A DNA stretch of 22,114 nt from a virus (IMGVR_UViG_3300042544_001297:1-22114), one strand, 5' to 3'; positions 821-18,244 are shown, counted from the stretch's first letter. Notes: generated from the letters alone by a model not told the origin. A program made the numbers and translations.

Positions 821-835
821 TTCGGGGGTAAAAAA

Positions 836-1837
836 ATGAGTGACCTCGAACTTTTTGATGAACCGTCTGACAAAGAACCAGACGAACCTTTAATTCAAAC
901 GGCCTCCGATATGCGGCCCGATTTGTCCGAACTCGGACTCATCGAGCATGACCGCGGCATCGTTGAGGATACCTACGAGAACCGTGCCATCCTACGTGGC
1001 AACAACTACCAATGGGTTCCCGTCTACACATCTAACGGACACGCCACCAACCTCATCGAGGCTCGCTCGCTTGAGCAGATGAAGGAACGGCGTCTCATCA
1101 GCATCTCAGCAAAACGAGCTCTGCTGTCAGAACCACTTCAGAATAACTCCGACTACTTGACGGGCCTCGATCTGGTTGTTGACCAAGAGGCTTGCAAACT
1201 TGTACCCCCTTGGGTACTAGCGGCAACCCGCGCTTGGATAAAAGAGCAGGAAGCTGGCGGCCCGCCTACTGATCGGCGAGCGCCGAGAACATTACCTACC
1301 CGCTGTCGAGCCCAGACCCCAGAGGGTATGCGCTGCATGCTGTGGTCATCGGGACGGATTAAAGATGACGGCTTGTGTCGCCTCCACCTCGGCGGGGTAA
1401 AAAAGACAGGCGTGGACATCGAACGGGCTCGCGCAAAACTTCTACAGTCTGCCCCATACGCTGTGGACAAACTTGAAGAACTTATGGAGACCGCTGTCTC
1501 TGAACCCGTCCGCCTCAAAGCGGCAACGGAGATACTTGACCGTGCTGGCGTGCGAGCAGGTATGGAGATTGACATCGGCGTGGAGTTAAAGGATTCCCGT
1601 ACGCCCGCTGAAATTATTGCTGAACGGCTTGCCCGCCTGAAAGCAGGAGCCAACATTATTCAAGGCGAGCTCGCAGCTGCGGACACTTCCGTACAAGATG
1701 CGGAAGTTGTTCTGGAGCTGGATCAGGATCCGCCTAAAATTTTTACCCCCCCAACAACAGCTGGAGCTGCAGTACCAACAACGGAACAACTTGACCAACC
1801 AACCATCTCAGACGAGGAGCTCGACGAGCTACGATGA
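836..1837 (+). CDS. Terminase-small-subunit-like protein with a zinc-knuckle motif
   Basis: A 333-aa soluble protein. The N-terminal 60 residues are acidic. At about residues 155-185 there is a Cys/His cluster (RCRAQTPEGMRC ... GLCRLHLGG) that could bind zinc. It is followed by a helical segment (about 195-245: ARAKLLQSAPYAVDKLEELM, then VRLKAATEILDRAGVRAG). A helical repeat ending in 'AAxxILDRAG' is common in actinophage proteins annotated as small terminase subunits or terminase-associated. The C-terminus is acidic and proline-rich. Translation starts after GGGGGTAAAAAA, which acts as the ribosome-binding site and is also a copy of the dispersed motif. The gene overlaps the next by four bases (ATGA). 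No large terminase is visible beside it, so the packaging role is family-based inference. Confidence 0.6.
   Translation: MSDLELFDEPSDKEPDEPLIQTASDMRPDLSELGLIEHDRGIVEDTYENRAILRGNNYQWVPVYTSNGHATNLIEARSLEQMKERRLISISAKRALLSEPLQNNSDYLTGLDLVVDQEACKLVPPWVLAATRAWIKEQEAGGPPTDRRAPRTLPTRCRAQTPEGMRCMLWSSGRIKDDGLCRLHLGGVKKTGVDIERARAKLLQSAPYAVDKLEELMETAVSEPVRLKAATEILDRAGVRAGMEIDIGVELKDSRTPAEIIAERLARLKAGANIIQGELAAADTSVQDAEVVLELDQDPPKIFTPPTTAGAAVPTTEQLDQPTISDEELDELR
1740..1792. repeat. Composite mosaic element, inverted G-module, inside a CDS
   Basis: TTTTTACCCCCCC (the GGGTAAAAA motif on the minus strand, 1740-1748) is followed by palindromic AGCTGGAGCTGCAG and then GAACAACTT at 1784-1792. The layout matches the composite elements elsewhere, except that the G-rich module is flipped. 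It lies in the Pro/Thr-rich tail of the terminase-like protein, where insertions would be tolerated. Confidence 0.5.
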
Positions 1838-2040
1838 CAAACCAACAACTTTTGGAATTAGCACAGCTGCATGCAGAGCGGCTCGAGAACGACATCAAGC
1901 TGGCCCGCACAAGAGATGAACACATTCGGGTAACGGCTCGCGCCAATGAAGCAGCGGAGATGGTTAACGGATTGTTAAAACTTGAATCAAATGAGCCGCA
2001 GCCTGTTCGCAACATTAGCGGCATGGGATTTATAGATTAA
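1834..2040 (+). CDS. Small helical protein, function unknown
   Basis: A 68-aa protein whose start overlaps the stop of the terminase-like gene (ATGA), giving translational coupling. The first 50 residues are predicted helical (LLELAQLHAERLENDIKLAR). A short tail ends NISGMGFID. It could be a partner of the upstream protein, since coupled pairs are often produced in fixed ratio. I recognise no domain. The stop codon lies in the left arm of a large palindrome that probably ends the transcript. Confidence 0.7.
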   Translation: MTNQQLLELAQLHAERLENDIKLARTRDEHIRVTARANEAAEMVNGLLKLESNEPQPVRNISGMGFID

Positions 2041-2080
2041 TTACTAAACTATGCTAGGTGCTAGCATAGTTAGTAATTAA
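2037..2080. terminator. 44-bp near-perfect palindrome after the left operon
   Basis: A left arm at 2037-2056 and a right arm at 2062-2080 are complementary over 19 base pairs with a single bulged A and a five-base loop (GGTGC). The left arm includes the TAA stop of the preceding gene. It is AT-rich apart from GCTA/TAGC and has no T-run after it. It may be a terminator or mRNA-stabilising hairpin, or equally a dimeric protein-binding or recombination site. Confidence 0.55.
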
Positions 2081-2103
2081 CGGTTTGTCAAGAGGAGAAC
2101 GGC

Positions 2104-2181
2104 ATGGGACGGCAAGAGGGCGACTGCACTAAAGAACCTGTGCCAAAAGACGGCGTGAGTGAGATGGACGACCTGCTATGA
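2104..2181 (+). CDS. 25-aa peptide, function unknown
   Basis: A very short frame starts at ATG 2104 behind a good ribosome-binding site (AAGAGGAGAA, spacing about 6). It encodes a charged peptide beginning MGRQEGDC and ending EMDDLL. Its TGA overlaps the ATG of the next gene (ATGA). The ribosome-binding site and exact coupling argue for it despite its size. It may be a leader that sets translation of the zinc-ribbon gene rather than a working protein. Confidence 0.5.
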   Translation: MGRQEGDCTKEPVPKDGVSEMDDLL

Positions 2182-2279
2182 CAACGGATTGTTTCTGGTG
2201 CGGCGAGGAACTTAATGCGGACGGCGTGTGTAAAAGCTGCGCAGCAACCCAACGGCACGCTTCCACCACTTCCGAATAA
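2178..2279 (+). CDS. 33-aa zinc-ribbon microprotein
   Basis: Coupled by ATGA to the upstream peptide. The sequence has two CxxC knuckles, CFWC near residue 5 and CKSC near residue 18, separated by GEELNADGV. This is the classic spacing of a single zinc ribbon that pins two beta-hairpins around one zinc ion. The tail is Thr/Ser-rich. Such proteins often bind DNA, RNA or RNA polymerase, but the partner here is unknown. It is one of at least eight tiny Cys-pair proteins in the window. Confidence 0.6.
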   Translation: MTTDCFWCGEELNADGVCKSCAATQRHASTTSE

Positions 2280-2397
2280 CGGCTCGCCCTAGAACGAGGT
2301 ATGTCCCAACGGTTCCAGCGAAAGCGGCGAGGAACGGTAAGACGTGGTGTAGACCCCAGTCACCTGACGGGTCGGCATGCGCAAGAATCGAAATCAT
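2212..2397 (-). CDS. Possible antisense 61-aa membrane peptide
   Basis: On the minus strand a frame beginning MISILAHADPSG encodes a convincing membrane segment (VLPFLAAFAGTVGTYLVLG, about residues 19-37) followed by a positive flank (RKWWKR). This positive-inside layout is not expected from a random frame. Against it: it is opposite to every neighbour, overlaps the tail of the zinc-ribbon gene, and has only a weak ribosome-binding site. It may be a real orphan, a relic, or chance. Confidence 0.35.
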   Translation of the reverse strand: MISILAHADPSGDWGLHHVLPFLAAFAGTVGTYLVLGRAVIRKWWKRAVGLLRSFYTRRPH

Positions 2398-2669
2398 TCT
2401 TAAATACTAACGGCATGCGCCTGTGCGTGCGTATAAATACAACGGCATGTCACGTAGTAACTTACACCTAAATTACAACGGTATTAATGCAGGGAGGTTT
2501 AGCTGCAGCTTAAGTCCAGATCTCAACATCCAAATAACTTTGCCAAGCTACAGCGGCCAGCTTAATTCGCACGTTCGCACGAAAAAGCAGGAAGGTCACC
2601 AGCACGTAGCTGCAGATCGCCGCCAACATCCAAACAACTTGGGATGACGGCCCGCCGCCAGATCAATAA

Positions 2670-2715
2670 TTTTTACCCCCCAGAAGCTGGCCAGCTCCAG
2701 ATCGCTAAACAACTT
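2670..2715. repeat. Composite mosaic element, inverted G-module
   Basis: TTTTTACCCCCC (minus-strand GGGTAAAAA, 2670-2678), then the palindromic AGCTGGCCAGCT, then GATCG and AAACAACTT at 2707-2715. The second module keeps plus orientation while the first is flipped, as at 1740-1792. Confidence 0.5.
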
Positions 2716-2876
2716 ACGAACAACTTCAGCCGCAGCATTGACAAAACTTGACAGACCGAGTAGGATTAGGTTTCGCAACCTAGCGGCCGCGAAACTAAAA
2801 AGGGCCCTTCAGCTTGCAACTTCCAAATAACTTTTTCCCATCCCAGGTGCAGCACCAGGTGCCAGGCTTTTACGGG

Positions 2877-2931
2877 GGGTAAAAAAATCTGATCGGATCG
2901 GGCCCGAAGCTGTCGAACTTTCAAATAACTT
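2877..2931 (+). repeat. Composite mosaic element
   Basis: GGGTAAAAA (2877-2885, within a G6 run) is followed by ATCTGATCGGATCGGGCCCG, a nested palindrome, and then by CTTTCAAATAACTTT (AAATAACTT 2923-2931). The spacing from first to second module is 46 bases. It lies wholly between genes. Confidence 0.55.
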
Positions 2932-2992
2932 TGGCGTGCGGCCTAGAGCTGCAGAGCGGCGCGACACGGAAATAACTTTTTATATTTAAGAG

Positions 2993-3021
2993 TTGCATGT
3001 TTGTCAGAGAGGTACTACAAT
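2993..3021 (+). promoter_or_regulatory. Promoter for the 3066-3902 operon
   Basis: TTGCAT (2993-2998) and TACAAT (3016-3021) are separated by 17 bases. The spacer contains TTTGTCAGAGAG, also present in the promoter at 4292, so these two form a pair distinct from the GCAGGAA-type promoters. Confidence 0.7.
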
Positions 3022-3065
3022 AATTATCAGAGCAACCGCTCTAACAAAATGACGGAAGGACACCC

Positions 3066-3371
3066 GTGTCAACAATTACAAAAGTAGCGGCTTTACCTCA
3101 ATGCGACTTCTGCACTGAGAAGGCAAGATTCGACGGCATGACAACATACGGCCCGTGGGGCAATATGTGTGAACCACACTTTGATACATACGGCGTCGGC
3201 TTGGGAACAGGCAAGGGGCAGCGGCTGGTCGAAGAAGGAGAAGATGTTGTGATGTCATACAGCGAGCTAGCGGATCTGACGCACGGCACGCAAGTAGAAC
3301 TGTTTGGGTTCTGTTCCTGCGAAGACCTAGAACCGCATGAGTACCCGTACGAAGATTGCGGGCGTGCGTAA
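3066..3371 (+). CDS. Zinc-ribbon-like actinophage hypothetical protein
   Basis: A 101-aa protein starting at GTG after ACGGAAGGA. The N-terminal 45 residues have CDFC (about residue 14), then a glycine/tryptophan turn (TTYGPWGNMCEPHF), giving Cys-Cys...Cys-His ligands. A YGVGLGTGKGQRL segment follows. I recognise this arrangement from a common small family in actinobacterial phages and their hosts, of unknown role. The C-terminal half is acidic and ends with a second Cys pair (FCSC). It is first in a promoter-driven operon and overlaps the next gene by TAATG. Confidence 0.75.
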   Translation: MSTITKVAALPQCDFCTEKARFDGMTTYGPWGNMCEPHFDTYGVGLGTGKGQRLVEEGEDVVMSYSELADLTHGTQVELFGFCSCEDLEPHEYPYEDCGRA

Positions 3372-3505
3372 TGCGTGGATATGTTGAGTGGCTTGAGAGC
3401 CAAGAACGGGACGGGCTAGGAACTAGCCACGAGGATTGGATTGAGTCGCATCTAGAAAAGGCTGATGCGGCACGGGACGAGGAGACGGATGAAAGTACCC
3501 AGTAA
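3371..3505 (+). CDS. 44-aa acidic protein, function unknown
   Basis: It starts at the ATG within TAATG at the end of the zinc-ribbon gene. The peptide is very acidic and Trp-containing (MRGYVEWLESQERDGLG ... EDWIESHLEK) and likely helical. It overlaps the following gene by 17 bases in another frame. The coupled start and dense overlaps are typical of phage operons. No family recognised. Confidence 0.6.
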   Translation: MRGYVEWLESQERDGLGTSHEDWIESHLEKADAARDEETDESTQ

Positions 3506-3902
3506 GTTGTACCACGCCGCACCTGAATGCGTGTTTGAAAATATTAACGGCGAGGGATTGAAGTCTAACTTCGGTGAGATATATGCGGCGAGTAGTCCAG
3601 CCGATGCAATGAACTTTATGTGGTTCAGACTTCTTGACCACCCGCACTACAAGTTAGAGAGCGGCAAGATAGTCGGCATGGACTTAGAGCGGCATGACCG
3701 CATCTACGTATTTGAAATTTCAACTAACCGCACACAAAAAGATTATTGGGAAGTTGGAACGGATCACAGCTCAGCGTTCTTTGGCGGCGCGGGTAGTTGG
3801 GTGTACGGAGGTAAAAATATGGAACGGCGTGCCATAAGCGATGTCACGTACTTCACCCGTGAGATGGTGGAGGAAGCCAGATCCGCTGCGGCGAGCATCT
3901 GA
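3489..3902 (+). CDS. Possible ADP-ribosyltransferase-fold protein
   Basis: A 137-aa protein. I place the start at ATG 3489 because ACGAGGAGA lies just upstream; longer in-frame starts lack a site. The N-terminus reads LYHAAP...FENINGEGL, then IYAASSPADAMNF, then RIYVFEIS. This order (xYHA, I..eGL, 'Y.a.s...A..F', V-F-E-I) resembles Tpt1/KptA-like and other small ART-fold proteins that open with an H-containing strand and use a beta-strand Tyr or Ser to hold NAD. A Gly-rich FFGGAGSWVYGG and an acidic tail follow. I see no certain catalytic glutamate, so enzymatic activity is a hypothesis. It is last in its operon, followed by a terminator. Confidence 0.55.
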   Translation: MKVPSKLYHAAPECVFENINGEGLKSNFGEIYAASSPADAMNFMWFRLLDHPHYKLESGKIVGMDLERHDRIYVFEISTNRTQKDYWEVGTDHSSAFFGGAGSWVYGGKNMERRAISDVTYFTREMVEEARSAAASI

Positions 3903-3920
3903 CATTCAAATAACTACGGT

Positions 3921-3961
3921 AAGCCCGTGGAGCTCACTGCGAGCCCACGGGTTTATTATTT
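3921..3961 (+). terminator. Rho-independent terminator
   Basis: Arms AAGCCCGTGG (3921-3930) and CCACGGGTTT (3945-3954) pair over ten bases with one G-U. A T-rich run (TTTATTATTT) follows. It closes the operon begun at 2993. Confidence 0.8.
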
Positions 3962-3965
3962 ATGC

Positions 3966-4145
3966 ATGGGTAAAAAAGAACGGGATGAACTCAAGCGTCG
4001 CATCAAAGGCGTGCCTGGAAACTACGTGCAGAACCAGAAAGCGCAGGTCTTTGAAGACCGCCGCACGAAGCGTCGTCGTACCCGTGGGGTAAAAAATCTT
4101 GAAGCGATCAGTGAATCGGCCGATCAGGATTCAACTTCCAAATAA
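3966..4145 (+). CDS. Small basic protein, possible nucleic-acid binder
   Basis: A 59-aa protein rich in Lys and Arg (MGKKERDELKRR, later RRTKRRRTRGVKN). Its start is just after the upstream terminator with no clear ribosome-binding site; a GTG at 3927 would extend it through the hairpin and seems less likely. Codons 1-4 and the 'RGVKN' segment are both encoded by copies of GGGTAAAAA, and its stop codon lies within the AAATAACT motif. Most of the second half is therefore repeat sequence. It may be a real basic peptide or a frame captured by repeats. Confidence 0.45.
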   Translation: MGKKERDELKRRIKGVPGNYVQNQKAQVFEDRRTKRRRTRGVKNLEAISESADQDSTSK

Positions 4146-4147
4146 CT
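4087..4147 (+). repeat. Composite mosaic element at a gene end
   Basis: GGGTAAAAA (4087-4095), then GATCAGTGAATCGGCCGATC with inverted GATC words, then AACTTCCAAATAACT (AAATAACT 4140-4147). The spacing is 53 bases. The TAA in the second module is used as the stop codon of the 59-aa gene. Confidence 0.55.
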
Positions 4148-4291
4148 CAAAACCACAGAACCACAGCAAAAACCTAACAACTCAGATTTTTACTCACGCT
4201 CAAAATCGCCAGGGCCCCAGGCCAGTCCAAACTTCCAAACAACTTCTTCTTCTCGACCTCGCATTTGCTGACATCAACGAAACGCCCTGAC

Positions 4292-4320
4292 TTGCTTTTG
4301 TCAGAGAGATGATGTAATGT
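4292..4320 (+). promoter_or_regulatory. Promoter for 4355-4784
   Basis: TTGCTT (4292-4297), 17-base spacer with TTGTCAGAGAGATG, and TAATGT (4315-4320). It shares the GTCAGAGAG spacer with the promoter at 2993. The ribosome-binding leader ACGACGAAGGGA follows. Confidence 0.65.
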
Positions 4321-4354
4321 TTGTTATGCCAAGTAAAACGACGAAGGGATACAA

Positions 4355-4784: not shown

Positions 4785-4791
4785 TAAAACT

Positions 4792-4805
4792 GTTCCGAAG
4801 GGAAC
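4792..4805 (+). other. Short leader hairpin
   Basis: GTTCC-GAAG-GGAAC forms a five-base-pair stem with a four-base loop between the 4784 stop and the ribosome-binding leader of the next gene. It could be an RNA-stability or weak terminator element; there is no T-run. Confidence 0.4.
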
Positions 4806-4832
4806 TATCCAAAAACGACGAAAGGATAAACA

Positions 4833-5552: not shown

Positions 5553-5565
5553 GAACGGCACGGCG

Positions 5566-5590
5566 TGGGTGGGGTAAAAAGCCCCACCCA
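5566..5590 (+). terminator. Perfect hairpin with the G-motif in its arm and loop
   Basis: TGGGTGGGG (5566-5574) pairs perfectly with CCCCACCCA (5582-5590) around the loop TAAAAAG. The left arm plus loop spell GGGGTAAAAA. There is no T-run after it, so it may be a weak terminator or processing site. Confidence 0.55.
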
Positions 5591-5641
5591 ATGCCAACGG
5601 CAAGGTAAGATTAGATTTACAAACGGAAGGGTAAAAACGGC

Positions 5642-5986
5642 ATGGCTAAAGAAGAAGACATTGTTGATGCGGAGCTCGTCGTAGAAGACGGCTCGCTAGA
5701 GGTAAAAATAATCGATCCGCAGCCAATCGAGCGCTCGCTACACTACTTTGCGCTTGACGGGAACTACGGTGACGCGAGTGGCATGCTCGTATTGGAGACC
5801 ACATACTGGAGAGAAATCGACTGGGAGATTCTGGAATCCGCTAGTGATGACCAGCGTGCAAACGTTGCACGTCTGATTACGGAGTCATACGAGAAGCCCG
5901 AGGACATGTCGGTGTTGTACGACAAGTTTGAGCAGTACGGTGTAGACCTTGATGACTTCATGCCACGTGACCAGCTTGACAGCTAG
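5642..5986 (+). CDS. Acidic hypothetical protein
   Basis: A 114-aa, strongly acidic protein (MAKEEDIVDAELVVEDGS ... ALDGNYGDASGMLVLETTYW). The middle is predicted mixed alpha/beta and the last 50 residues helical, ending DLDDFMPRDQLDS. The ATG follows GGAAGGGTAAAAACGGC, so the dispersed motif overlaps the ribosome-binding region. Codons near 5701 also contain an AGGTAAAAA variant. No family recognised. A terminator closes the transcript downstream. Confidence 0.7.
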   Translation: MAKEEDIVDAELVVEDGSLEVKIIDPQPIERSLHYFALDGNYGDASGMLVLETTYWREIDWEILESASDDQRANVARLITESYEKPEDMSVLYDKFEQYGVDLDDFMPRDQLDS

Positions 5987-6015
5987 GCCACACGTAGGGT
6001 AAAAATAAGAACTGC

Positions 6016-6042: not shown

Positions 6043-6051
6043 TGCCACACC

Positions 6052-7226: not shown

Positions 7227-8270
7227 ATGGAAAATACAAATCTTCGTGAAAGATACAAGTCTCTAGGTGGAAGTTCCACACTATGGGATTTAGCTGAAAA
7301 TGTAATTGCTCAGGCAGTATCAGAAACTTCAACTACAAGTCTGTCTGCAAGTGTCGCACCTGCGGGGCGTTATGTTGCAAGAGCGAGTGGTGCGGAAAGA
7401 GCGCCACGCAAAGATAAGCAGACAGTTATCGTAGATGGCATGGAAGGTGAAGAGTCTTATGTTCGACCAAATGGTGATTTGTATTTTGGTCGCAAGTGGG
7501 GCGAACACTCAGATGTAATGGCGCTACGCAAATCACGCGAAATGACTTCTAAGTCTTTCTCAGGTGAGGGTGGCTCTCCAATGTTCGCCATGATTTATGG
7601 CGCACCGGGTTGCGGAAAAACTGCGATGGTTGAAGCAGCGTTTGGCTCAGATGTTGTCACCTTGATGGGAACTGGCGATACCGAAGTTGCAGACATGGTT
7701 GGTGGTTATGTGCAGACACCTTCAGGTGGTTTCGATTGGGTTGATGGTGGTTTGATAGATGCCGCCGTCAATGGCAAAGTTTATTTCATTGACGAAATTG
7801 GTTTGATTGACCCAAAGGTTTTGTCACTTGCTTATGGTTTGATGGACGGACGACGCGAGTTAGTTGTCACCGCAAATCCAGAGCGTGGCACTATCAAGGC
7901 TCACCCAAACTTTTATGTAGTTGCCGCGACTAACCCAAATGCTCCGGGAGTTCGTTTGTCTGAAGCGTTGCTATCGCGTTTCACTATTCAAGTTGAAATG
8001 ACAACTGATTGGGCGCTCGCTAAGAAGTTGGGAGTTCCAACTGCGATGGTTACTGCGTCTCAAAATCTTGCTAAGAAGCAAGCATCAAATGAAGTTTCAT
8101 GGTCTCCACAAATGCGAGAACTTATCGCTTTCCGAGATGTGGCGAAAACTTTTGGCAATAGTTTCGCTATCTCGAACCTACTTGCCTCAGCCCCCGAAAT
8201 AGACAGACCTGTTGTTGCCGATGTGCTAACAAGGGCTTATGGGGAAGAGGTCAAGCCAGCGAAAATCTAA
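7227..8270 (+). CDS. MoxR/CobS-like AAA+ ATPase
   Basis: A 347-aa AAA+ protein. Walker A is GAPGCGKT (residues 125-132) and Walker B is VYFIDE (165-170). ATNPN (about 214-218) is the sensor-1 region and LSEALLSRF (about 224-232) the arginine-finger segment, which together fit the MoxR/CobS clade. About 120 N-terminal residues precede the ATPase core, including a Ser/Thr/Ala-rich stretch, a basic linker and a charged segment. MoxR ATPases usually remodel or load metal and cofactors into partner proteins through a neighbouring VWA protein, and a VWA gene follows here. Phage CobS-like genes are known but without a settled role; there is no cobalamin pathway in the window. A strong hairpin after the stop could reduce read-through. 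Confidence 0.88.
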   Translation: MENTNLRERYKSLGGSSTLWDLAENVIAQAVSETSTTSLSASVAPAGRYVARASGAERAPRKDKQTVIVDGMEGEESYVRPNGDLYFGRKWGEHSDVMALRKSREMTSKSFSGEGGSPMFAMIYGAPGCGKTAMVEAAFGSDVVTLMGTGDTEVADMVGGYVQTPSGGFDWVDGGLIDAAVNGKVYFIDEIGLIDPKVLSLAYGLMDGRRELVVTANPERGTIKAHPNFYVVAATNPNAPGVRLSEALLSRFTIQVEMTTDWALAKKLGVPTAMVTASQNLAKKQASNEVSWSPQMRELIAFRDVAKTFGNSFAISNLLASAPEIDRPVVADVLTRAYGEEVKPAKI

Positions 8271-8412: not shown

Positions 8413-10182
8413 ATGGCACACATAAAGGTTTCTGCGACCAGAGCAGAAAACACTCCGAAGGAGTGGCTAGTAACAGGCGCACAGATTGGCGAACTTGTAA
8501 ATACTTGGTCTGAAAGGTCAGACCTAATCGCTTATGTTGGTGAGGGCGCAGGTGGTATTGCACCAGCGTGTTACAACCCAGCACTTGCAGAGGTTGAAGT
8601 AAATACACAGATTGCTTTTGGTGGCGCGACAACTCCAGCGATGGTTGGCGACCTACGCGAGCGCAAGCAACAATTTGAGTTTCCAAAAGCGACAGGTGCA
8701 ATTCTGCACGAAGCGTTTCACGCAAAGTTTTCTATCTTCGACATAGAAAAGGCTCACAAAGATTTAGCGCAAGATGAGGCTTCAGCGTTGATGCTACTTG
8801 AAGAGGGTCGCATTGAAACTCAGGGCGTATGGCACAAACCTGAGTCAAAAAACTTTCTACGCAGTTGCGCGATTGAAATTGTTATTACAGATGCTAAAGA
8901 GATGGAAGCAAGTGCTTCAACAACTCAAACTTGCGCGAGTGCGATTGGTTTAGTGTTGGCTCGCGTTGATGCGGGTATTTTGGATTTGGCAGATGTAGCA
9001 GGAATTGAAAAACAAGTTGTCAGCTTTTTAGGTGAAGAAGTTGTTTCTAAGTTGCGAGAGATTTCTAAAACTTTCCGCGAAACTATTATTGACTTCCCAA
9101 CTCAGGCAGAAACTCTTCTCTACCCACTAGCAAAAGAGTGGGCGAAGATTGTTCGCGATGTGAAAGAAGAGAAGGGCGAGAAAGATGAGCAGATGGCTCA
9201 GGCTTTCGCTCAGGCACTTGCAGAGGCTTTAGAAGAGGCTTCAGAAGAAAACTCTATTTCAGTTGGTATGGCGCTCGCAGACCAGCAAGAACAAGAAGAG
9301 TCAGAGGCAGAAGCGCAAGCAAAAGCCAAAGATGCAAAAGAGCAAAATGAAAACAAAGATGTTGCTAAAAAAGTTTTCAACAAATCTACAACTGAGATTG
9401 GTGGCGACACTTCTTCTCGATTAGTAGAAACTAGAAAACCAACTAGCGCAGAGCGAGTCGCGGCAGTTACGATTTCTAAGATGTTTGAGAAAGCAAAGTA
9501 TCGCGACAGAGATGCAACTGAGATTACTTCAATTACTCCACCCGGAAGATTGCGCTCTCGCGCACTTGTCCAAAATGCCGCGATGAAGTCACGCGGAATT
9601 GTGCAACAAACAGAAGCGTGGCGTCGCACAGTTCGTAAGCAGACAGACGACCCAACACTTACAGTTGGAGTTATGGTGGACATTTCAGGTTCAATGGGAA
9701 GTGCTATGAAGCCAATGGCGACAACTGCGTGGGTTATGTCTGAAGCAACTCGCAGAGTGCAAGGTAAATGTGCGATGGTTTATTACGGCTCAGATGTATT
9801 TCCAACTCTCAAAGCAGGACAACACCTTGAAGAGGTTCGTGTTTATTCTGCAAGTGATGGAACTGAAAAGTTTGACAAAGCATTTCGCGCACTTGATGGC
9901 GCACTCAACCTTCTCAATGGAAGTGGCGCTCGATTGCTTGTGATTGTTTCAGATGGGCAATACACAGGTGAAGAGAAGCAAAACGCTCGCAGATGGACAA
10001 AGCGTTGCGCTGAGTCAGGCGTTGCGGTTCTATGGCTTCCTTTCGATGGCGGGCATTATGCGAGTCGTATCCTTGAAGAGCGAAATGGCGTAGTAATGTC
10101 AGGAGTGCTTGACCCAGTATCGGCGTCCGTCGAGATTGGAAAAGCGGCAGAACGAGTTCTAACAAATGTGGGGACGCGGTAG
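8413..10182 (+). CDS. HExxH zincin-like and VWA-domain protein, partner of the AAA+ ATPase
   Basis: A 589-aa protein starting after AGGAACGACGAA. At residues 99-103 it has HEAFH in ILHEAFHAKF, an HExxH zinc-metallopeptidase-type motif, and about 27 residues on LLEEGRIE offers a possible third ligand. The middle (about 245-320) is a charged, Gln/Glu/Ala/Lys-rich helical linker. The C-terminal 180 residues form a VWA domain: MVDISGSMGS with the DxSxS metal-ion (MIDAS) motif at 423-427 and VIVSDGQY later. This HExxH-linker-VWA order resembles DUF2201/CobT-like proteins encoded next to MoxR-type ATPases. In such pairs the VWA protein binds a target that the ATPase remodels. Whether the zincin part is catalytic cannot be told. 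It has its own promoter. Confidence 0.85.
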   Translation: MAHIKVSATRAENTPKEWLVTGAQIGELVNTWSERSDLIAYVGEGAGGIAPACYNPALAEVEVNTQIAFGGATTPAMVGDLRERKQQFEFPKATGAILHEAFHAKFSIFDIEKAHKDLAQDEASALMLLEEGRIETQGVWHKPESKNFLRSCAIEIVITDAKEMEASASTTQTCASAIGLVLARVDAGILDLADVAGIEKQVVSFLGEEVVSKLREISKTFRETIIDFPTQAETLLYPLAKEWAKIVRDVKEEKGEKDEQMAQAFAQALAEALEEASEENSISVGMALADQQEQEESEAEAQAKAKDAKEQNENKDVAKKVFNKSTTEIGGDTSSRLVETRKPTSAERVAAVTISKMFEKAKYRDRDATEITSITPPGRLRSRALVQNAAMKSRGIVQQTEAWRRTVRKQTDDPTLTVGVMVDISGSMGSAMKPMATTAWVMSEATRRVQGKCAMVYYGSDVFPTLKAGQHLEEVRVYSASDGTEKFDKAFRALDGALNLLNGSGARLLVIVSDGQYTGEEKQNARRWTKRCAESGVAVLWLPFDGGHYASRILEERNGVVMSGVLDPVSASVEIGKAAERVLTNVGTR

Positions 10183-10249: not shown

Positions 10250-10294
10250 GGGTAAAAACGGAAGCCCCGTCTGAAACCAAGAGGCGGGGCTTCC
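10250..10294. terminator. Strong hairpin, polarity suited to the minus strand
   Basis: GGAAGCCCCG (10260-10269) and CGGGGCTTCC (10285-10294) pair perfectly. On the plus strand no T-run follows. On the minus strand the hairpin is followed by CGTTTTTACCC, which is the GGGTAAAAA copy at 10250-10258 read backwards. It probably ends the VWA transcript but would work better against antisense transcription. Confidence 0.6.
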
Positions 10295-10325: not shown

Positions 10326-10775
10326 ATGGACGGCATACAACCACTACTCGACCACGTTGGTGCGAGCGTCGAGTGGGATAGCGGATTGCCGATGCACGAA
10401 GATAAACGCGATGCGATGTTTTATTGTGATGGCGGTTCGTCACGATTTGTGGCGAGGGTAAAAATAGCTGAGTTCGCGGTTGATGTTTATTGTGACGGCA
10501 TTACCGATGTGCGTGATAGAACAAATGGCGAGCGCTACAGATACGGCGGAGACTTCATAATGAACGACTACACAACAGACGAGTTGCTAAATCAGGCAAC
10601 AGAAAGCGGCGACCTTGAAGTAGTCAATAACAGTTGGTTTGATTTGTATTGCGAAGGCGAACACCTTGATACGGTAAGCCACGATGTGTGGGACGCAATA
10701 CGAGATGCAATTACTTTTCTCCAGACGGAGAAGCAGAACGCTCAGGCGATTGAAAACGTCGGCGTAGATTTCTAG
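10326..10775 (+). CDS. Acidic hypothetical protein
   Basis: A 149-aa acidic protein behind the conserved leader AAACGACGAAAGGA. The first half contains beta-rich segments (MFYCDGGSSRFVARVKIAEF); the second half is helical (DVWDAIRDAITFLQTEKQ). Residues RVK at about 44 are encoded by a GGGTAAAAA copy. I recognise no family. It has no clear promoter of its own; the next gene starts 12 bases after its stop, so the two form an operon. Confidence 0.68.
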   Translation: MDGIQPLLDHVGASVEWDSGLPMHEDKRDAMFYCDGGSSRFVARVKIAEFAVDVYCDGITDVRDRTNGERYRYGGDFIMNDYTTDELLNQATESGDLEVVNNSWFDLYCEGEHLDTVSHDVWDAIRDAITFLQTEKQNAQAIENVGVDF

Positions 10776-10787: not shown

Positions 10788-11270
10788 ATGGCGAGAGTTA
10801 TTCAGTTGATGTTGGTTGAAGCAGAGACAGCAGAAGACGCGGCGAACCATGTGTCAGGTCTTCTTGATAATGAAACCCCTACACCTCATTGGTCGGACTA
10901 CCACGACCTTGTTGATGAGTTTGATGGTAAGAGTGCGGTCGCGTATTCAGAAACCGTTGGCCAGATGAAGTTCAAGGAGTTTCTTGGCTACCGCGAGGAA
11001 GAGCTGAAGAGACTTTACGACAGGGTAAAAAATTTCGATCTTGCAAATGCTGTTGATAGATACGATCCGTTTCGGTCAGGTGGCTACACAGATAACGACT
11101 TCCGAACCTACGAGGTTAGAAAGATTGCCAGCATCTTGGAAGACAGTTGGACTATGGACACAGGTATCTATGACTTGGAAACTTGGTCAGCAAACCTCAA
11201 AGCCTTCAGAGAGCGTTGCGAACTCGCACCTGAGATGCAGTTCCTAGTTGCGGTGAGTTTCCACCACTAA
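10788..11270 (+). CDS. Hypothetical protein
   Basis: A 160-aa protein starting after TAGGGGAGTAAAAAA, which provides the ribosome-binding site. The N-terminus (ARVIQLMLVEAETAEDAANHV) looks like a short strand plus helix. The rest is acidic and aromatic-rich, with YDPFRSGGYTDNDFRTYEV in the middle. A GGGTAAAAA copy encodes RVKN at about residue 79. No family recognised. It is followed directly by a new promoter. Confidence 0.65.
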   Translation: MARVIQLMLVEAETAEDAANHVSGLLDNETPTPHWSDYHDLVDEFDGKSAVAYSETVGQMKFKEFLGYREEELKRLYDRVKNFDLANAVDRYDPFRSGGYTDNDFRTYEVRKIASILEDSWTMDTGIYDLETWSANLKAFRERCELAPEMQFLVAVSFHH

Positions 11271-12159: not shown

Positions 12160-12222
12160 GGGTAAAAATTCCAGGAGCTGAGGCTGCGTCAGCAAAAAAC
12201 CTGCACCAGGTGCAAACAACTT
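12160..12222 (+). repeat. Composite mosaic element
   Basis: GGGTAAAAA (12160-12168), a palindromic middle including TGCACCAGGTGCA, and AAACAACTT (12214-12222) continuing TTTAATGATGC. The same ending (ACTTTTYAATGATGC) closes the copy at 12623, and GCACCAGGTGC also occurs at about 2850. Confidence 0.6.
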
Positions 12223-12622: not shown

Positions 12623-12678
12623 GGGTAAAAATTCTTGATCGTTCAGTTCCTCCAGGTCCTGCAAGATGCAGATAACTT
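12623..12678 (+). repeat. Composite mosaic element
   Basis: GGGTAAAAA (12623-12631) with ATTCTTGATCG, a middle with CCTCCAGG, and GATAACTT (12671-12678) continuing TTCAATGATGC. It is preceded by GCGGCCGCGGATCG. Alignable with the copy at 12160. Confidence 0.55.
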
Positions 12679-12781: not shown

Positions 12782-12788
12782 TACTTTC

Positions 12789-13138: not shown

Positions 13139-13145
13139 AAATCTG

Positions 13146-13662: not shown

Positions 13663-13880
13663 TGAGCGAGTCTATAGATGAGATAAACCTTTCTCGAACA
13701 GTTTTGTTTGTTGGTGATTACTTCTCAATGATGACGACAGTTGTTCTAAACGAGGAGTTGCGTGCCGAAGGTGAAGACGACGATGAGTTTGCCATTAGAT
13801 TGGCAAAGCAATTTATGTTGGGTCACTACGGGTGGGATTTGGAGTCAGTTTCCAACGAAATTGGCATCGTCGAGGAGTAA
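13662..13880 (+). CDS. Small acidic hypothetical protein
   Basis: A 72-aa acidic protein starting in the TAATG at the end of the previous gene. The first part alternates hydrophobics (NLSRTVLFVGDYFSMMTTVV) and the second is acidic/helical. I see no family. It ends the run started at 12893 and is followed by a repeat-rich gap. Confidence 0.65.
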   Translation: MSESIDEINLSRTVLFVGDYFSMMTTVVLNEELRAEGEDDDEFAIRLAKQFMLGHYGWDLESVSNEIGIVEE

Positions 13881-13882
13881 CA

Positions 13883-13966
13883 GCGCTCGCAGCAGCAAAT
13901 CAGGGGTAAAAATTTGTTTTATTCTAGAGTTCCAGCTCTGGCTGGAGCTTCGCGCTCGCTGAGCTG
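13883..13966. repeat. Repeat-rich gap with the G-motif and GCGCTCGC copies
   Basis: Two GCGCTCGC octamers (13883 and 13952) flank a GGGTAAAAATTT (13904-13914) and the palindromic TCCAGCTCTGGCTGGAGC. No second AAYAACTT module is present, so this is an incomplete composite element. Confidence 0.5.
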
Positions 13967-14074: not shown

Positions 14075-14077
14075 GGT

Positions 14078-14326: not shown

Positions 14327-14910
14327 TGACAACGATGGTGGCTGTGCAAGGACCTCATTGGTCTGTGGTTGGTTGTGACAGCCAAGTAACTGAAGATGAC
14401 AGGGTTTTCCATCTTCCAAAAGATAATCCAAAGATAGTAAAAAATGGGCCCTTTTTGCTGGGCGCAGCGGGTGACATGCGGGCTATCAACTTATTGGCTT
14501 ATCAATTCAAGCCACCTGCGCCGCCTATCAATTGCTCTGGCAATAAACTTGACAGATTTGTAGCAACTAAATTTATCCCTGAACTTAAATCATTGTTTGA
14601 TGATGTGCAGTATGGCGAAAAAGGTAGTCAGGACTCAACAATTCTCTGCGTAGTGCACGGTGCTACATACGAAATTGGATCAGGCTATGACTGGGCAAGA
14701 GATGTTTCTGGGATCTACGCTTTTGGATCAGGCGGATCGTATGCGCTGGGATCGCTGCACAACGAGCTAGAGGGTAAAAAATTCACGGTTTCTTCAGTGC
14801 GTGCTGCTGTGCGGCGCTCGCTAGAGGTCGCGGCGAAACTTGACCCCAACACAGGCGGGCAGTTTTTGATTTTCGTTCAGCAAGACGAGTGCCATCAGCC
14901 AACTAGATAA
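14326..14910 (+). CDS. Proteasome/HslV-like Ntn-hydrolase peptidase
   Basis: A 194-aa protein starting MTTMVAVQGPHWSVVGCDSQVT. Removal of the initiator Met would expose Thr, the catalytic N-terminal nucleophile of proteasome-beta/HslV peptidases. Family features follow: GCDSQVT matches the G.D.r.t region, PKIVKNGPFLLGAAGD the strand-turn with the conserved Gly, and GIYAFGSGGSYALGSL the signature GSG turn (about residues 127-142). Small Ntn-hydrolases of this type occur in actinophages, with no proven role. No partner ATPase is adjacent; the MoxR-like gene is 6 kb away. A GGGTAAAAA copy encodes EGKKF near residue 150. Confidence 0.82.
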   Translation: MTTMVAVQGPHWSVVGCDSQVTEDDRVFHLPKDNPKIVKNGPFLLGAAGDMRAINLLAYQFKPPAPPINCSGNKLDRFVATKFIPELKSLFDDVQYGEKGSQDSTILCVVHGATYEIGSGYDWARDVSGIYAFGSGGSYALGSLHNELEGKKFTVSSVRAAVRRSLEVAAKLDPNTGGQFLIFVQQDECHQPTR

Positions 14911-15013
14911 AGTTATTGGGAAGTTAAAAAGCCCCCCTCAGCCTTAGCCTCAAAAGTGTTAAGACAATTCGGACATTTTTGATGTGGTTTTAATCACAAA
15001 AAATTTATTTTAT
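14911..15013. other. AT-rich spacer before the 15030 promoter
   Basis: No gene is seen. It contains AAAAAGCCCCCCTCAGCC and a poly-A/T tract (CACAAAAAATTTATTTTATTTT) directly upstream of the operator-like repeats, which may act as an UP element for the promoter. Confidence 0.35.
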
Positions 15014-15057
15014 TTTCCTGCATTTGGACTTGACTTTCCTGCACTTTCGTATAAAGT
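15014..15057 (+). promoter_or_regulatory. Promoter with two operator-like repeats, inverted box
   Basis: TTTCCTGCA at 15014-15022 and again at 15035-15043, 21 bases apart (two helical turns). TTGACT (15030-15035) and TAAAGT (15052-15057) form the promoter with a 16-base spacer. The box in the spacer is the reverse complement of the usual TGCAGGAAA. Confidence 0.7.
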
Positions 15058-15093
15058 TATCTATGTAAGGAAGAAACGACGAAAGGAAAGACA

Positions 15094-15267
15094 ATGCGAG
15101 GACTACCAGACAGCGCAGTTTATGGCTCATACCGACGCCTATCAGGTGGGGTGCGCCGTAGAGCAAAGTCTCAGGTGAGTATTCTTGATGTAATCACCGA
15201 GTGGCTAGAAGGCTATGAGGAGCGCATAAAGGAAGAGCAAAGAATAAAAGAAATTAGAGGCTACTAA
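15094..15267 (+). CDS. 57-aa basic/helical protein
   Basis: Starts after AAACGACGAAAGGA, the conserved leader. Arg-rich N-terminal half (SYRRLSGGVRRRAKSQ), then a long charged helix (ITEWLEGYEERIKEEQRIKE). The basic half suggests nucleic acid or membrane contact. It has its own promoter and is followed within four bases by the next one, so it is a single-gene cassette. No family recognised. Confidence 0.65.
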   Translation: MRGLPDSAVYGSYRRLSGGVRRRAKSQVSILDVITEWLEGYEERIKEEQRIKEIRGY

Positions 15268-15270
15268 GAC

Positions 15271-15300
15271 TTGACAAAGTGCAGGAAGATGTAATAAACT
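15271..15300 (+). promoter_or_regulatory. GCAGGAA-family promoter
   Basis: TTGACA (15271-15276), AAGTGCAGGAAGATG in the spacer, then TAATAA (15292-15297) or TAAACT (15295-15300). It drives the 15335-16957 operon. Confidence 0.78.
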
Positions 15301-15334
15301 TATCCAGTAAGACAAAATGACGAAAGGAAACAAA

Positions 15335-15544
15335 ATGTTCGACAAAGTGCTAGAGGCAGTATTTATGTTCGACACTTCCAAGTGGAAGCAAGAGCGCAAG
15401 TATGTAGTGCGCCGTAATGTTGTATTCGGTCTAATCGCAGTAATCGCGTTCGTAGTTATCTGGACAGTTGCCAAGAACCTTTGGTGGACAGAGAACGGGT
15501 ATTGCTGGGGCGACATGGTTGAGTGCTACTTTGGGGGTAAATAA
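15335..15544 (+). CDS. Single-span membrane protein
   Basis: A 69-aa protein whose start (ATG 15335) follows AAATGACGAAAGGA. A soluble basic segment (SKWKQERKYVVRR) precedes a transmembrane helix (VVFGLIAVIAFVVIWTVA, about residues 29-46) and an aromatic, Cys-containing external tail (WWTENGYCWGDMVECYFGG). The N-in/C-out layout with two outer cysteines could permit a disulfide. It might be a spanin-like, holin-like or superinfection-exclusion protein. The stop overlaps the next start (TAATG). Confidence 0.7.
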   Translation: MFDKVLEAVFMFDTSKWKQERKYVVRRNVVFGLIAVIAFVVIWTVAKNLWWTENGYCWGDMVECYFGGK

Positions 15545-15723
15545 TGCGTAAAGGAAAATTTGGTCAAGACTTATCTCAGACTTCAGATAGCGATTTCGCG
15601 GACTTCCTATTGAAGTTTGCCTACATGACTCCAGAGCAGATGGAAGAAAGAGACGCTCTACCAACAAGAGAAGCGCGGAAGGCTTACATGAAGAACCTTC
15701 CTCTTCCAAAGATTGGGGGCTGA
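15544..15723 (+). CDS. 59-aa hypothetical protein
   Basis: Starts in the TAATG overlap. The sequence is helical (DFADFLLKFAYMTPEQMEER) with a 'LPTREARKAYMKNLP' block, then a Pro-rich end. The next gene starts two bases after its stop. It has the look of a phage tail or head chaperone fragment, but I cannot place it. Confidence 0.65.
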   Translation: MRKGKFGQDLSQTSDSDFADFLLKFAYMTPEQMEERDALPTREARKAYMKNLPLPKIGG

Positions 15724-15725
15724 AG

Positions 15726-16217
15726 ATGGCAAAGGGTAAAAAAGCTGGCACAACAGCGCCGACTTGGGACGAGTTCGTAGAAGCGATGCCGATGGTTGAT
15801 GGCAAGCCTCGAAAAGATTTGTTGCAAGAAGGCGAAACCATGTGGCAGAACAGGTTCTATGTTGTATTCAGAACCTACTTGATACCGCATCAGGGACATG
15901 ATGGTCCTATGCACCTAAGCATCAGACATCAACAGCGCAAGGCGATTAGGGATTGGCGTCATTTCCAACGCATCAAGAACGAACTTGCGGGTCCACAGCG
16001 AGAAGCAATAGAGATTTTCCCACCTGAAGCCATGTTGGTTGATGGTGCGAATCAGTATCACCTATGGGTTTTGCCGATGGGAGATACGACACCCTTTACT
16101 TGGAAGAGCGGTCGCGCCGTTTCAGGTGAAGAAGGTGGGCAGGAGTTGGAACGCAAAATGCGTGACATGGGTTTCGACCCGAAGCAGACAGTTCAAAGAC
16201 CAAGAGACGAGGAGTAA
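15726..16217 (+). CDS. DUF7694-like phage protein
   Basis: A 163-aa protein. The central region LSIRHQQRKAIRDWRHFQRIKNELAG...EAIEIFPPEAMLVDGANQYHLWVLP (about residues 64-117) matches a hypothetical family widespread in phages: 'DWR..QRIKNEL.G.E.EAvE.fP...~LvD.aNQYHLWVl'. The family is of unknown function; the regular Asp/Trp/His/Tyr residues suggest a binding site. The start is preceded by GGCTGAAG and is coupled to the gene before it. Codons near the start include a GGGTAAAAA copy (encoding GKK). Confidence 0.78.
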   Translation: MAKGKKAGTTAPTWDEFVEAMPMVDGKPRKDLLQEGETMWQNRFYVVFRTYLIPHQGHDGPMHLSIRHQQRKAIRDWRHFQRIKNELAGPQREAIEIFPPEAMLVDGANQYHLWVLPMGDTTPFTWKSGRAVSGEEGGQELERKMRDMGFDPKQTVQRPRDEE

Positions 16218-16219
16218 AA

Positions 16220-16420
16220 ATGAAGAGTCAGCGCCTTGCTGAAGAAGCAGCGAAGATGTATTCAGATGGTTTGGCAGTTGAGGCAGTAGCCCAGAAGTTG
16301 GGCGTTGCCTACAGGACAGCACGCAAAGCCATTAAAGCAGGTGGGATTGAGTTCAGAGACCCGTCCCAGAGATTGGTGGGTAGAACCCGCCCAGACAGAA
16401 AGATAGTGACTAATGCCTAA
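16220..16420 (+). CDS. Small helix-turn-helix DNA-binding protein
   Basis: A 66-aa protein beginning two bases after the previous stop with AGGAG as its ribosome-binding site. AAKMYSDGLAVEAVAQKLGVAYRTARKAIKAGGI (about residues 10-43) is a classic helix-turn-helix of the 'G.s...iA..lgvs..Tvrr..k..gi' type found in resolvases and small phage regulators. The C-terminus is basic. It may regulate this operon or bind the repeated operator in the promoters, but there is no direct evidence. Confidence 0.75.
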   Translation: MKSQRLAEEAAKMYSDGLAVEAVAQKLGVAYRTARKAIKAGGIEFRDPSQRLVGRTRPDRKIVTNA

Positions 16421-16559
16421 GAACATTGTTTGGACAGCGCTGATTTCGGCGCTCGCAGGAGCAAGTGCGGTTGTATCTGCATTTGTAGGAGCATCAGATT
16501 TCGTGGTGGCATTTGGTGCAGTAGCAATTTCGTCCGCCGTCCTAAGTGGAAGAGAGTAA
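16413..16559 (+). CDS. 48-aa protein with two transmembrane segments
   Basis: I read the frame from ATG 16413, within the end of the HTH gene. The protein is almost wholly hydrophobic: TALISALAGASAVVSAFVGA and FVVAFGAVAISSAVLSG make two helices joined by SD. A basic MPKN start and SGRE end give a hairpin topology like small class II holins. Longer frames over this region have no membrane character. It ends just before the next gene. Role unproven, but position two genes before the transglycosylase supports lysis. Confidence 0.65.
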   Translation: MPKNIVWTALISALAGASAVVSAFVGASDFVVAFGAVAISSAVLSGRE

Positions 16560-16561
16560 TT

Positions 16562-16957
16562 ATGTGGCTATTTACTGATACAGGTTATGTAAGTGCGGTT
16601 GTTTCAAAGGAAGACCGAACAAAGATTTCAGTTCGCGCTCGCGATAAGAAGTCCCTCGAAGGATTTGTGAAGAAGTTCGGGGTAAAAATTGTGGAACTCC
16701 AGGGACGCGACTATGAGTATCGCGTCTACATTACGAAGGAGCAGTTGAATCTCTGGGTTTCCGAACGCATTGAGGAGATGAACTACGACAATTTCAAGAC
16801 GCAGGTGACAAAGACCCGTGGTTATGATTTCGCGGAACCTCTGCACGGAGTCTGGTATGAGATGCTCGAAGTCTCTGACAAGCGTAAAAAGACCAAAAAG
16901 GGGAGCAGTTTAGGCTCACGCTGGTATGAAGAAGAACACAGTCTCCCTTACGCATAG
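16562..16957 (+). CDS. 'MWLFT' family hypothetical protein
   Basis: A 131-aa protein starting MWLFTDTGYVSAVVSKEDRT, the opening of a common bacterial and phage family ('MW.FT..G..S.V......l.VRaR'). The blocks VRARDKKSLEGF, DYEYRVYITKEQ and MNYDNFKTQV...RGYDF..PLHGVWYEML follow in the order seen in that family. Its function is unknown. The long upstream open frame is ignored because the membrane gene at 16413 occupies it. GGGTAAAAATT encodes GVKI at about residue 41. Confidence 0.8.
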   Translation: MWLFTDTGYVSAVVSKEDRTKISVRARDKKSLEGFVKKFGVKIVELQGRDYEYRVYITKEQLNLWVSERIEEMNYDNFKTQVTKTRGYDFAEPLHGVWYEMLEVSDKRKKTKKGSSLGSRWYEEEHSLPYA

Positions 16958-16972
16958 GCGGAGTGTCTGTGT

Positions 16973-17003
16973 TTGACAGACTTTCCTGCATGTGTGCTAT
17001 GGT
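16973..17003 (+). promoter_or_regulatory. Promoter for the transglycosylase operon, inverted box
   Basis: TTGACA (16973-16978), TTTCCTGCATGTG (reverse-complement box) in the spacer and TATGGT (16998-17003). The spacer is 17-19 bases depending on the -10 register. Confidence 0.65.
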
Positions 17004-17007
17004 TTTC

Positions 17008-17075
17008 ATGATGAAACGACACATTAGACAGAACGAAGGGCGTCCTAGCCCATTGGTTGCGAGTAACTAGCAACC
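17008..17075 (+). other. Leader with possible leaderless peptide and alternative hairpins
   Basis: ATGATGAAACG begins within a few bases of the predicted transcript start and encodes a 20-aa peptide ending at TAG 17068-17070. GGTTGC (17055-17060) pairs with GCAACC (17070-17075). GGGC (17038-17041) can pair with GCCC at 17048-17051 or with GCCC at 17077-17080, so two mutually exclusive folds exist. Confidence 0.35.
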
Positions 17076-17105
17076 TGCCCATGTCCCCTAACAAAGGAGA
17101 AGCAA

Positions 17106-17753
17106 ATGCGAAGTCCTTTATTTCGCCATGCCGAAACTACTACGTTTGGTGTGATAGCAGCAGTGCTAGCAGGAGCAGTCGTATGGAGTGCGGCAGCAAG
17201 TGCAGAAACTAATGAAACGAATGCAGGAGCAGCAGCACCCGCTGTTGTATTGGAAGAAGTGCGGCTCGTCAATCTGGCAGCAGCACGGATAGCTGGAGCT
17301 AAATCCCAGGAGGAGAAGCTCGAAGAGGTAAAAAATCTGAAAATTCAGATGCAGTTAGAGCTGTTTGAAGACAGGTCTATACCTCTAGCCCCAGTTGAAT
17401 TGAAGAACTTGCTCAAACTCGTTGGGTTTGAGGGTCAAGGGCTGAAGACAGCGTGGGCTGTGGTGATGACTGAGTCTAATGGTCGTCCTAAAGCGCATAA
17501 CTCAAATACCCGAACAGGTGATAATTCATACGGGCTGTTCCAAATCAACATGATAGGAGCACTTGGAGATGCACGCATCGAGAAGTATGAACTAGCAAAG
17601 AACTCAGACTTGCTTGACCCTGTGACCAATGCAGAGATTGCCTTTCACATGAGTGCTAAAGGAACTAACTTCTCGGCTTGGAAGGTTAGCGGTTATAATA
17701 AAGGCAGTGAAAGGTTTGAATCTTTCCTTGCTGAATACCCAACCAAAGGATAG
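17106..17753 (+). CDS. Membrane-anchored or exported lytic transglycosylase-like protein
   Basis: A 215-aa protein. Residues 13-33 (TFGVIAAVLAGAVVWSAAASA) form a signal peptide or membrane anchor. A charged helical stretch (about 48-90) follows. The C-terminal domain (about 108-215) has AWAVVMTESNGRPKAHN with Glu-123 as the likely catalytic acid, then GDNSYGLFQIN and AEIAFHMSAKGTNFSAW, the usual order in SLT/lysozyme-like domains that cleave the glycan backbone. Ribosome site AAAGGAG precedes ATG 17106. It could be a virion-entry or lysis enzyme. It is paired with a peptidoglycan-binding-like protein two bases downstream. Confidence 0.83.
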   Translation: MRSPLFRHAETTTFGVIAAVLAGAVVWSAAASAETNETNAGAAAPAVVLEEVRLVNLAAARIAGAKSQEEKLEEVKNLKIQMQLELFEDRSIPLAPVELKNLLKLVGFEGQGLKTAWAVVMTESNGRPKAHNSNTRTGDNSYGLFQINMIGALGDARIEKYELAKNSDLLDPVTNAEIAFHMSAKGTNFSAWKVSGYNKGSERFESFLAEYPTKG

Positions 17754-17755
17754 TT

Positions 17756-18244
17756 ATGAGTCAAGAACCAGAGCGTTTGTATCAGATGGAAGAGCCTAAG
17801 GCGCTCGCAGTTGAGCCTGAGACTCTCCCTGTTGTGATGGCTGAGCCAGCACCTGAGATGGTCAAGGTTGAAGAACCAGTTGCCATCGTAGTTGAGCCTG
17901 AAGTTGTTGCGGTTGAAGAACCAGGTGCAGCAGCTGAGAAGAAGAACAGGGGTAAAAAATCTGTGGTCGGATCGCAGATCGCCGATGGAACTTCTGTTTA
18001 TCTTTCTAAGATTGTGTTTGAATCTCTGTATTCAAAGAACAGTAACTCTGTTGCGGTGCTTCAGGAACGCCTCATTGAACTAGGTCATGTGACTGCTGGA
18101 GATGACAAGCGTGGCTGGATTAGTGTCGGAACTGCACAAGCCCTTGAAGACTTCAAGAGCGACAGTGCGGTTAAGGCTGGACTCTACTCAGAGGAACTTA
18201 TCAAGGCTGTATTTGCTGGAACCTCAGTCGAAGTATTGCCGTAG
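17756..18244 (+). CDS. Peptidoglycan-binding-like protein with Glu/Pro/Val-rich region
   Basis: A 162-aa protein. Residues 10-60 are a low-complexity EEPxxVxVEPE stretch, like a flexible spacer between cell envelope layers or domains. After a basic patch (KKNRGKKS, encoded partly by a GGGTAAAAA copy) the C-terminal 80 residues contain VAVLQERLIELGHVTAGDDKRGWISVGTAQALEDFK, a PG_binding_1-like repeat of the 'V..LQ..L...G......~G..~~T..Al..fQ' kind. The domain is divergent, so binding is inferred. With the transglycosylase it could form a split endolysin. A strong terminator follows. Confidence 0.7.
   Translation: MSQEPERLYQMEEPKALAVEPETLPVVMAEPAPEMVKVEEPVAIVVEPEVVAVEEPGAAAEKKNRGKKSVVGSQIADGTSVYLSKIVFESLYSKNSNSVAVLQERLIELGHVTAGDDKRGWISVGTAQALEDFKSDSAVKAGLYSEELIKAVFAGTSVEVLP

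Follow-up and report, generated by a model that had tools for sequence, protein, structure and literature searches.

A strand-oriented nine-base word confined to one gene module of uncultured actinobacterial phages, possibly a stoperator-like array

Dispersed short sites have been described in several phage groups. Cluster A mycobacteriophages carry 20 to 30 asymmetric sites of 13 to 14 bp that are oriented with transcription and whose consensus differs between subclusters; at these stoperators, the repressor acts on elongating RNA polymerase (PMC6550527, PMC9283540). Microbacterium phages of clusters EC, EG, and EI contain dispersed motifs of unknown function, of which the EC motif is an asymmetric 18-bp sequence in 12 copies, all in the same orientation and each 21 to 30 bp before a start codon (PMC7302621). 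The Start-Associated Sequences of cluster K mycobacteriophages lie almost without exception directly upstream of gene starts (PMC3203893), and in Bacillus phage SPbeta a single phage repressor, MrpR, binds the SPBRE elements, some 10 promoter sites each 15 bp long (PMC10516654).

The DNA analyzed here (the window; 22,114 nucleotides) comes from a large phage of actinobacteria and covers part of its genome. Its closest named relative is the 129-kb Actinomycetia phage DSL-LC01, assigned to Actinomycetia and lysogenic by its authors' prediction (PMC10611076). One related contig sits in an Aquiluna metagenome-assembled genome; judged from relatives alone, the hosts are probably freshwater actinobacteria. 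Like the systems above, the window carries a short dispersed word, GGGTAAAAA, and we compare its distribution, conservation, and orientation with theirs.

A nine-base word in the window

The window contains exactly 20 copies of the non-palindromic word GGGTAAAAA, 18 on the plus strand and 2 on the minus strand (1740 and 2670), spanning positions 826 to 17958; an earlier reading of this DNA from sequence only had given this count and strand split correctly. Among all 9-mers in the window, GGGTAAAAA is the most over-represented, and 100 dinucleotide shuffles yielded a mean of 0.21 copies and a maximum of 2. The sequence-only reading had named two outcomes that would speak against a recognition site, a full-genome count at the level of chance, or absence from related phages together with copies that align as one duplicated block. 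With 20 copies against 0.2 expected, flanks that do not align and share nothing beyond the word, and conservation in diverged strains, an origin by chance, by composition, or from a single duplicated block is hardly credible.

One-mismatch forms are near background in the window, except for AGGTAAAAA (3 copies), GAGTAAAAA (3), and GCGTAAAAA (2). Across 66 non-redundant copies, the flanks add only a weak purine at -1 (G in 35, A in 23) and a weak T after the word (38 of 66); of the preceding run of Gs described earlier, only this purine preference stood, and the proposed following segment ATTC/ATC...GATCG is found at a few copies and fails for the rest. Copies within genes are read as GKK, GVK, or RVK, as had been noted. 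Of the 16 V-K pairs that in-gene copies encode in the module of one relative (G005), 8 are spelled GTAAAA, and all 3 GKK are spelled GGTAAAAA; this exceeds the level of codon usage and supports the earlier proposal that selection acts on nucleotides rather than on protein. Two further words are also dispersed across the window: AACGACGAAAGGA, which is probably a ribosome-binding leader, and GCGCTCGC.

The copies and the module's anchor gene are as follows; window genes, promoters, and terminators are predictions, with gene calls made in this analysis.

826-834, plus: GGGTAAAAA, immediately 5' of the start of gene 836; same place in G005, G006, G007, and G025, and in G012 and G009, where it is written AAAAAGTAAAA
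1395-1403, plus: GGGTAAAAA, within gene 836-1837; not conserved
1740-1748, minus: reverse GGGTAAAAA, near the end of gene 836; conserved in four strains
2670-2678, minus: reverse GGGTAAAAA, control region; inverted partner of 2877
2877-2885, plus: GGGTAAAAA, control region
3968-3976, plus: GGGTAAAAA, start of a small ORF (ATGGGTAAAAAA); conserved in four strains
4087-4095, plus: GGGTAAAAA, small ORF shared with the 3968 copy; conserved in four strains
5572-5580, plus: GGGTAAAAA, 5' arm and loop of a strong hairpin; conserved in four strains
5629-5637, plus: GGGTAAAAA, 4 nt 5' of gene 5642; conserved in four strains
5997-6005, plus: GGGTAAAAA, directly 3' of gene 5642-5986; conserved in four strains
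7227-8270, plus: MoxR-like AAA ATPase gene, module anchor in relatives; no motif copy inside
10250-10258, plus: GGGTAAAAA, gap between gene 8413-10182 and gene 10326; not conserved (G005 has GGGGCAAAA there)
10456-10464, plus: GGGTAAAAA, within gene 10326; same place in G005, G006, and G026
11023-11031, plus: GGGTAAAAA, within gene 10788-11270; conserved in four strains
12160-12168, plus: GGGTAAAAA, preceded by a terminator (12107) and followed by a promoter (12264); conserved in four strains
12623-12631, plus: GGGTAAAAA, intergenic spacer with the order terminator, motif, promoter
13904-13912, plus: GGGTAAAAA, 24 nt past a 72-residue ORF; same place in G005, G006, G007, G025, and G026
14772-14780, plus: GGGTAAAAA, HslV-like gene at +446; same place in G005, G006, G007, G025, and G026
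15734-15742, plus: GGGTAAAAA, 8 nt into gene 15726; conserved in four strains
16680-16688, plus: GGGTAAAAA, within gene 16523-16957; present also in G006 and G025
17950-17958, plus: GGGTAAAAA, within a peptidoglycan-binding-like gene; near this position G026, G012, and G008 carry their own words

Confinement to one module and replacement between clades

The relatives are metagenomic contigs, some of them partial, apart from named phage records; one (G002) is apparently a joined or redundant assembly. In the longer relatives, the word is confined to an 18- to 30-kb module of small genes around the MoxR-like ATPase, with about 20 to 34 copies per module. G005 has 21 copies in a 19-kb module (0.47 expected) and 4 in the other 117 kb (1.39 expected), G001 has 20 inside and none outside, and G025 has 33 inside and 1 outside. 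The end of the copies at 17958 in the window reflects this, the motif being a feature of a single gene module and not of the genome as a whole. Around a related ATPase in cultured Microbacterium and Gordonia phages, no comparable dispersed word was seen.

This confinement bears on the analogies first offered for the word, namely Chi, polarity of the replisome or a translocase, and uptake. A genome-wide polar motif of this sort (Chi-like, replisome or primase, packaging, or uptake) would agree with the orientation bias and with the positive GC skew across the module, but it is contradicted by the module limit, since long contigs are at or near background outside the module, and reverse copies accompany minus-strand genes. 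We regard it as very unlikely.

Within the module, the sites are conserved: three diverged strains, with 79 to 83% aligned identity to the window, keep 14 of its 20 sites intact, whereas 10.5% of 9-mers matched for composition are kept (P = 4e-10). In sister clades, this module contains one-way words of other sequence: AGGTAAAAA, AAAAAGTAAAA, GTAAAAAGTAAAA, and GGAAAAAAA. Relatives about 53% identical in a marker protein have 0 or 1 copies of GGGTAAAAA and carry AAAAAGTAAAA in the module instead; in G012, AAAAAGTAAAA occurs 26 times in the module (0.19 expected) and nowhere outside. Other relatives have AGGTAAAAA(A), GTAAAAAGTAAAA, or GGAAAAAAA, and the clade words of G032 (27 copies in the module, 0.02 expected) and G037 (26 copies, 1.1 expected) are likewise absent outside it. 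T-rich words in more distant clades (GTATTTATTTTTTC and others) may represent a separate system, and the main claim does not rest on them. At L104, L106-L108, and L118, the module has about 40 copies of TTAGTAGCA, a word with almost no polarity.

Several orthologous positions retain a site while its letters differ. Recurrence at positions orthologous to window sites was seen for 5 of 22 sites in G012 (1.0 expected by shifting, P =.005), 5 of 26 in G009 (P =.004), and 3 of 11 in G008 (P =.001); in G026 (7 of 21) and in G025 (8 of 26), the latter with the window's own word, neither value was reached in 1,000 shifts. Recurrence is not clear in G032 (P =.05), and the positional match between G037, which uses GGAAAAAAA, and the window clade is 1 of 22 (P =.37). 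Replacement of the word with positions retained suggests a fast-changing control site.

Orientation, placement, and the readings they bear on

With gene strand as a proxy for transcription, our own gene calls, and related genomes pooled, the ratio of forward to reverse copies is 236:27 for plus-strand genes and 1:10 for minus-strand genes (Fisher 6e-9). G008, G009, G012, G025, and G032 each have minus-gene contexts of their own that carry reverse copies. Several of the orientation exceptions cluster near a control region:

1838-3065, unstranded: control region in which few genes are assigned; contains predicted promoters that diverge, repeats AACWTCCAAAYAACTT, and motif copies in inverted orientation
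2063-2091, minus: predicted leftward promoter TTGACA-17-TATGCT, inside a palindrome; also in G005, G006, and G007
2738-2766, plus: predicted rightward promoter TTGACA-17-TAGGAT

The reverse copy at 1740 lies downstream of the predicted leftward promoter at 2091(-) and in sense with it, and a reverse copy so placed was found in all six genomes scanned (the window, G005, G006, G007, G025, and G026). The reverse copy at 2670 is about 60 bp upstream of the predicted rightward promoter at 2738(+). The palindrome, TTAATTACTAAACTATGCTAGGTGCTAGCATAGTTAGTAATTAA (about 2037-2085), overlaps the predicted leftward promoter that is common to G005, G006, and G007, and an 18-nt repeat, AACWTYCAAAYAACTTKK, has four copies between 2525 and 2933. 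In DSL-LC01 (L063 18000-46000), about 20 TATAAT-type promoter words lie on a single strand, many beside GATTCTA/TAGAATC inverted words.

Copies are enriched between genes in every clade tested. In the window, 11 of 20 are intergenic, compared with 24% noncoding sequence (P =.003), and the other 45% lie in genes; the values are 22 of 26 in G012 (P = 5e-10) and 24 of 27 in G032 (P = 2.5e-10). The distance from a copy to a gene start ranges from 0 to hundreds of bases. Taken with the enrichment, conservation, module confinement, and codon strings, the intergenic excess supports the earlier proposal of a recognition site at the nucleotide level. A phage promoter, also suggested at that stage, fits poorly with mid-gene copies, variable start distances, and the presence of separate TTGACA/TANNNT-type promoters.

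Some spacers have the order terminator, motif, promoter (2 in the window, 4 in G012, and 6 in G032), as expected of a promoter-upstream or insulator element that lies mainly between a terminator and the next promoter and acts on initiation or blocks read-through between single-gene units. Nearly all copies in the T-rich clades G038, L125, L143, and L152 also lie past a terminator and ahead of a promoter; however, the T-rich words may be unrelated, promoter distance is not fixed, and in GTAAAA clades many copies sit in the middle of genes or where two genes adjoin tightly. We consider such an element improbable.

A translation-start element, like the Start-Associated Sequences, would account for the roughly one-third of copies in G012 and G009 whose ends are no more than a few bases from a start codon. 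In the window, however, copies at starts are limited to 826 and 5629, with 3968 and 15734 overlapping a start, and the rest are mid-gene or past stops, so that this role is decidedly improbable.

The word could instead act in RNA, with sense copies marking module transcripts for an RNA-binding regulator, a sequence-specific RNase, or an antisense RNA. T4 RegB, for example, is a sequence-specific RNase that acts at GGAG. Such a role would fit the sense orientation, which holds outside the main plus-strand block too, as well as the copies within genes, the near-invariance of the word, and the copies that abut or overlap start codons (AAAAAGTAAAAATG in G012 and G009; GGGTAAAAATG in G005 and G007). 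It fits less well with the copies in terminator-to-promoter gaps, where transcription should be low. Rfam gives no known RNA element at the sites; the Rfam and tRNA search returned one sub-threshold Rfam match and no tRNA. Enclosure of the word in hairpin loops, compared with shuffled flanks, is at chance (7 versus 4.7 expected in the window, 6 versus 5.9 in G006, 9 versus 8.8 in G012, and 8 versus 10 in G009), and without a conserved hairpin context, we rejected hairpin-loop recognition and a structured RNA element. Action in RNA is, overall, unlikely, if still a serious contender.

A stoperator-like reading and its comparison with known systems

A site that is module-limited, strand-oriented, conserved, and clade-specific is best explained by a phage factor that acts on transcription of the module. 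By analogy with cluster A phages, we tentatively favor, at a little under an even chance, a stoperator-like array in which a phage-encoded protein would bind double-stranded GGGTAAAAA in a fixed orientation and act on RNA polymerase during elongation across this run of small genes, most of which share one orientation; the module might thereby be damped or shut off at some stage. Several observations speak against this reading: the searches described below found no repressor; the sites are nearly invariant, whereas an ordinary operator would predict single-mismatch sites; 45% of the window's copies lie within genes, while stoperators are mostly in short intergenic spaces; most intergenic copies in the window clade have no recognized terminator or promoter in the same gap; and G037 lacks a clear positional match with the window clade. 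We give appreciable but clearly minority weight to the possibility that this is a module-wide, strand-oriented site system distinct from stoperators, with a word repeatedly replaced, several positions kept, and a partner that possibly acts at the RNA level.

Among the Pfam families listed for many G005 proteins of up to 420 aa (in one list, the best 25 of 38), there was no helix-turn-helix (HTH) repressor; matches in one G005 alignment (A1) include a Thoeris inhibitor (Tad3), a Dam methylase, a serine recombinase, and a cobalamin adenosyltransferase. The window contains one weak candidate binder:

19951-20445, plus: 164-aa protein with two predicted HTH domains and a flexible linker

AlphaFold models this protein with a mean pLDDT of 83 and a pTM of 0.44. 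Its C-terminal HTH resembles 2x48 (a small HTH), the sole strong structural match among those listed, which include no stoperator repressor. Its candidacy as binder is weakened by its presence also in relatives without the word and by a second recognition helix that hardly varies. In a search for the binder by gene presence, a 72-aa ORF (about 13665-13880) was found only in loci with GTAAAA-type words, yet it is acidic and shared ancestry explains its distribution equally well. A WhiB-type gene is more similar among genomes with A-rich words, but ancestry may explain this too; the WhiB-type protein at L024:3762-4307 (G005 23762-24307) has an extra C-terminal segment with two CxxC pairs.

If the stoperator-like reading is right, these uncultured phages form a natural series of one control array with altered recognition words, in which one could trace, site by site, how a regulator and its roughly 25 sites evolve together. 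This would offer a route to the partner molecule and allow the phages to be divided into regulatory groups.

Like the Start-Associated Sequences, GGGTAAAAA is a short asymmetric word, mostly in one orientation and with some copies at start codons; unlike them, few window copies are at starts, and mid-gene and 3' copies are common. SPBRE was also a repeated phage element first found by sequence alone, and it is bound by one phage repressor; here there are 20 to 34 sites, many away from promoters. The EC, EG, and EI repeats are dispersed motifs in actinobacteriophages as well, and the EC motif is asymmetric and in one orientation, whereas GGGTAAAAA also has mid-gene and 3' copies and is replaced between clades. 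The cluster A stoperators (L5, Bxb1, TipsytheTRex) share several features: 20 to 30 short sites without dyad symmetry (20 here, about 20 to 34 in relatives), orientation that follows transcription (here with gene strand as proxy), a consensus that differs between related groups, and an excess in short intergenic spaces. Stoperators lie mainly in such spaces; here 22 of 26 copies in G012 and 24 of 27 in G032 are intergenic, but 11 of 20 in the window. Stoperators are genome-wide, whereas these sites are confined to one 18- to 30-kb module, nearly invariant, and often within genes; the stoperator repressor has two DNA-binding domains, and the putative counterpart here is the weak candidate at 19951-20445. 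With this module confinement and no repressor found in these searches, the relation is one of likeness to stoperators, not of membership. The kind of element is already known from the dispersed asymmetric repeats of unknown function in Microbacterium phages (PMC7302621); what is new here is that, inside a single module, the word has been replaced serially from clade to clade.
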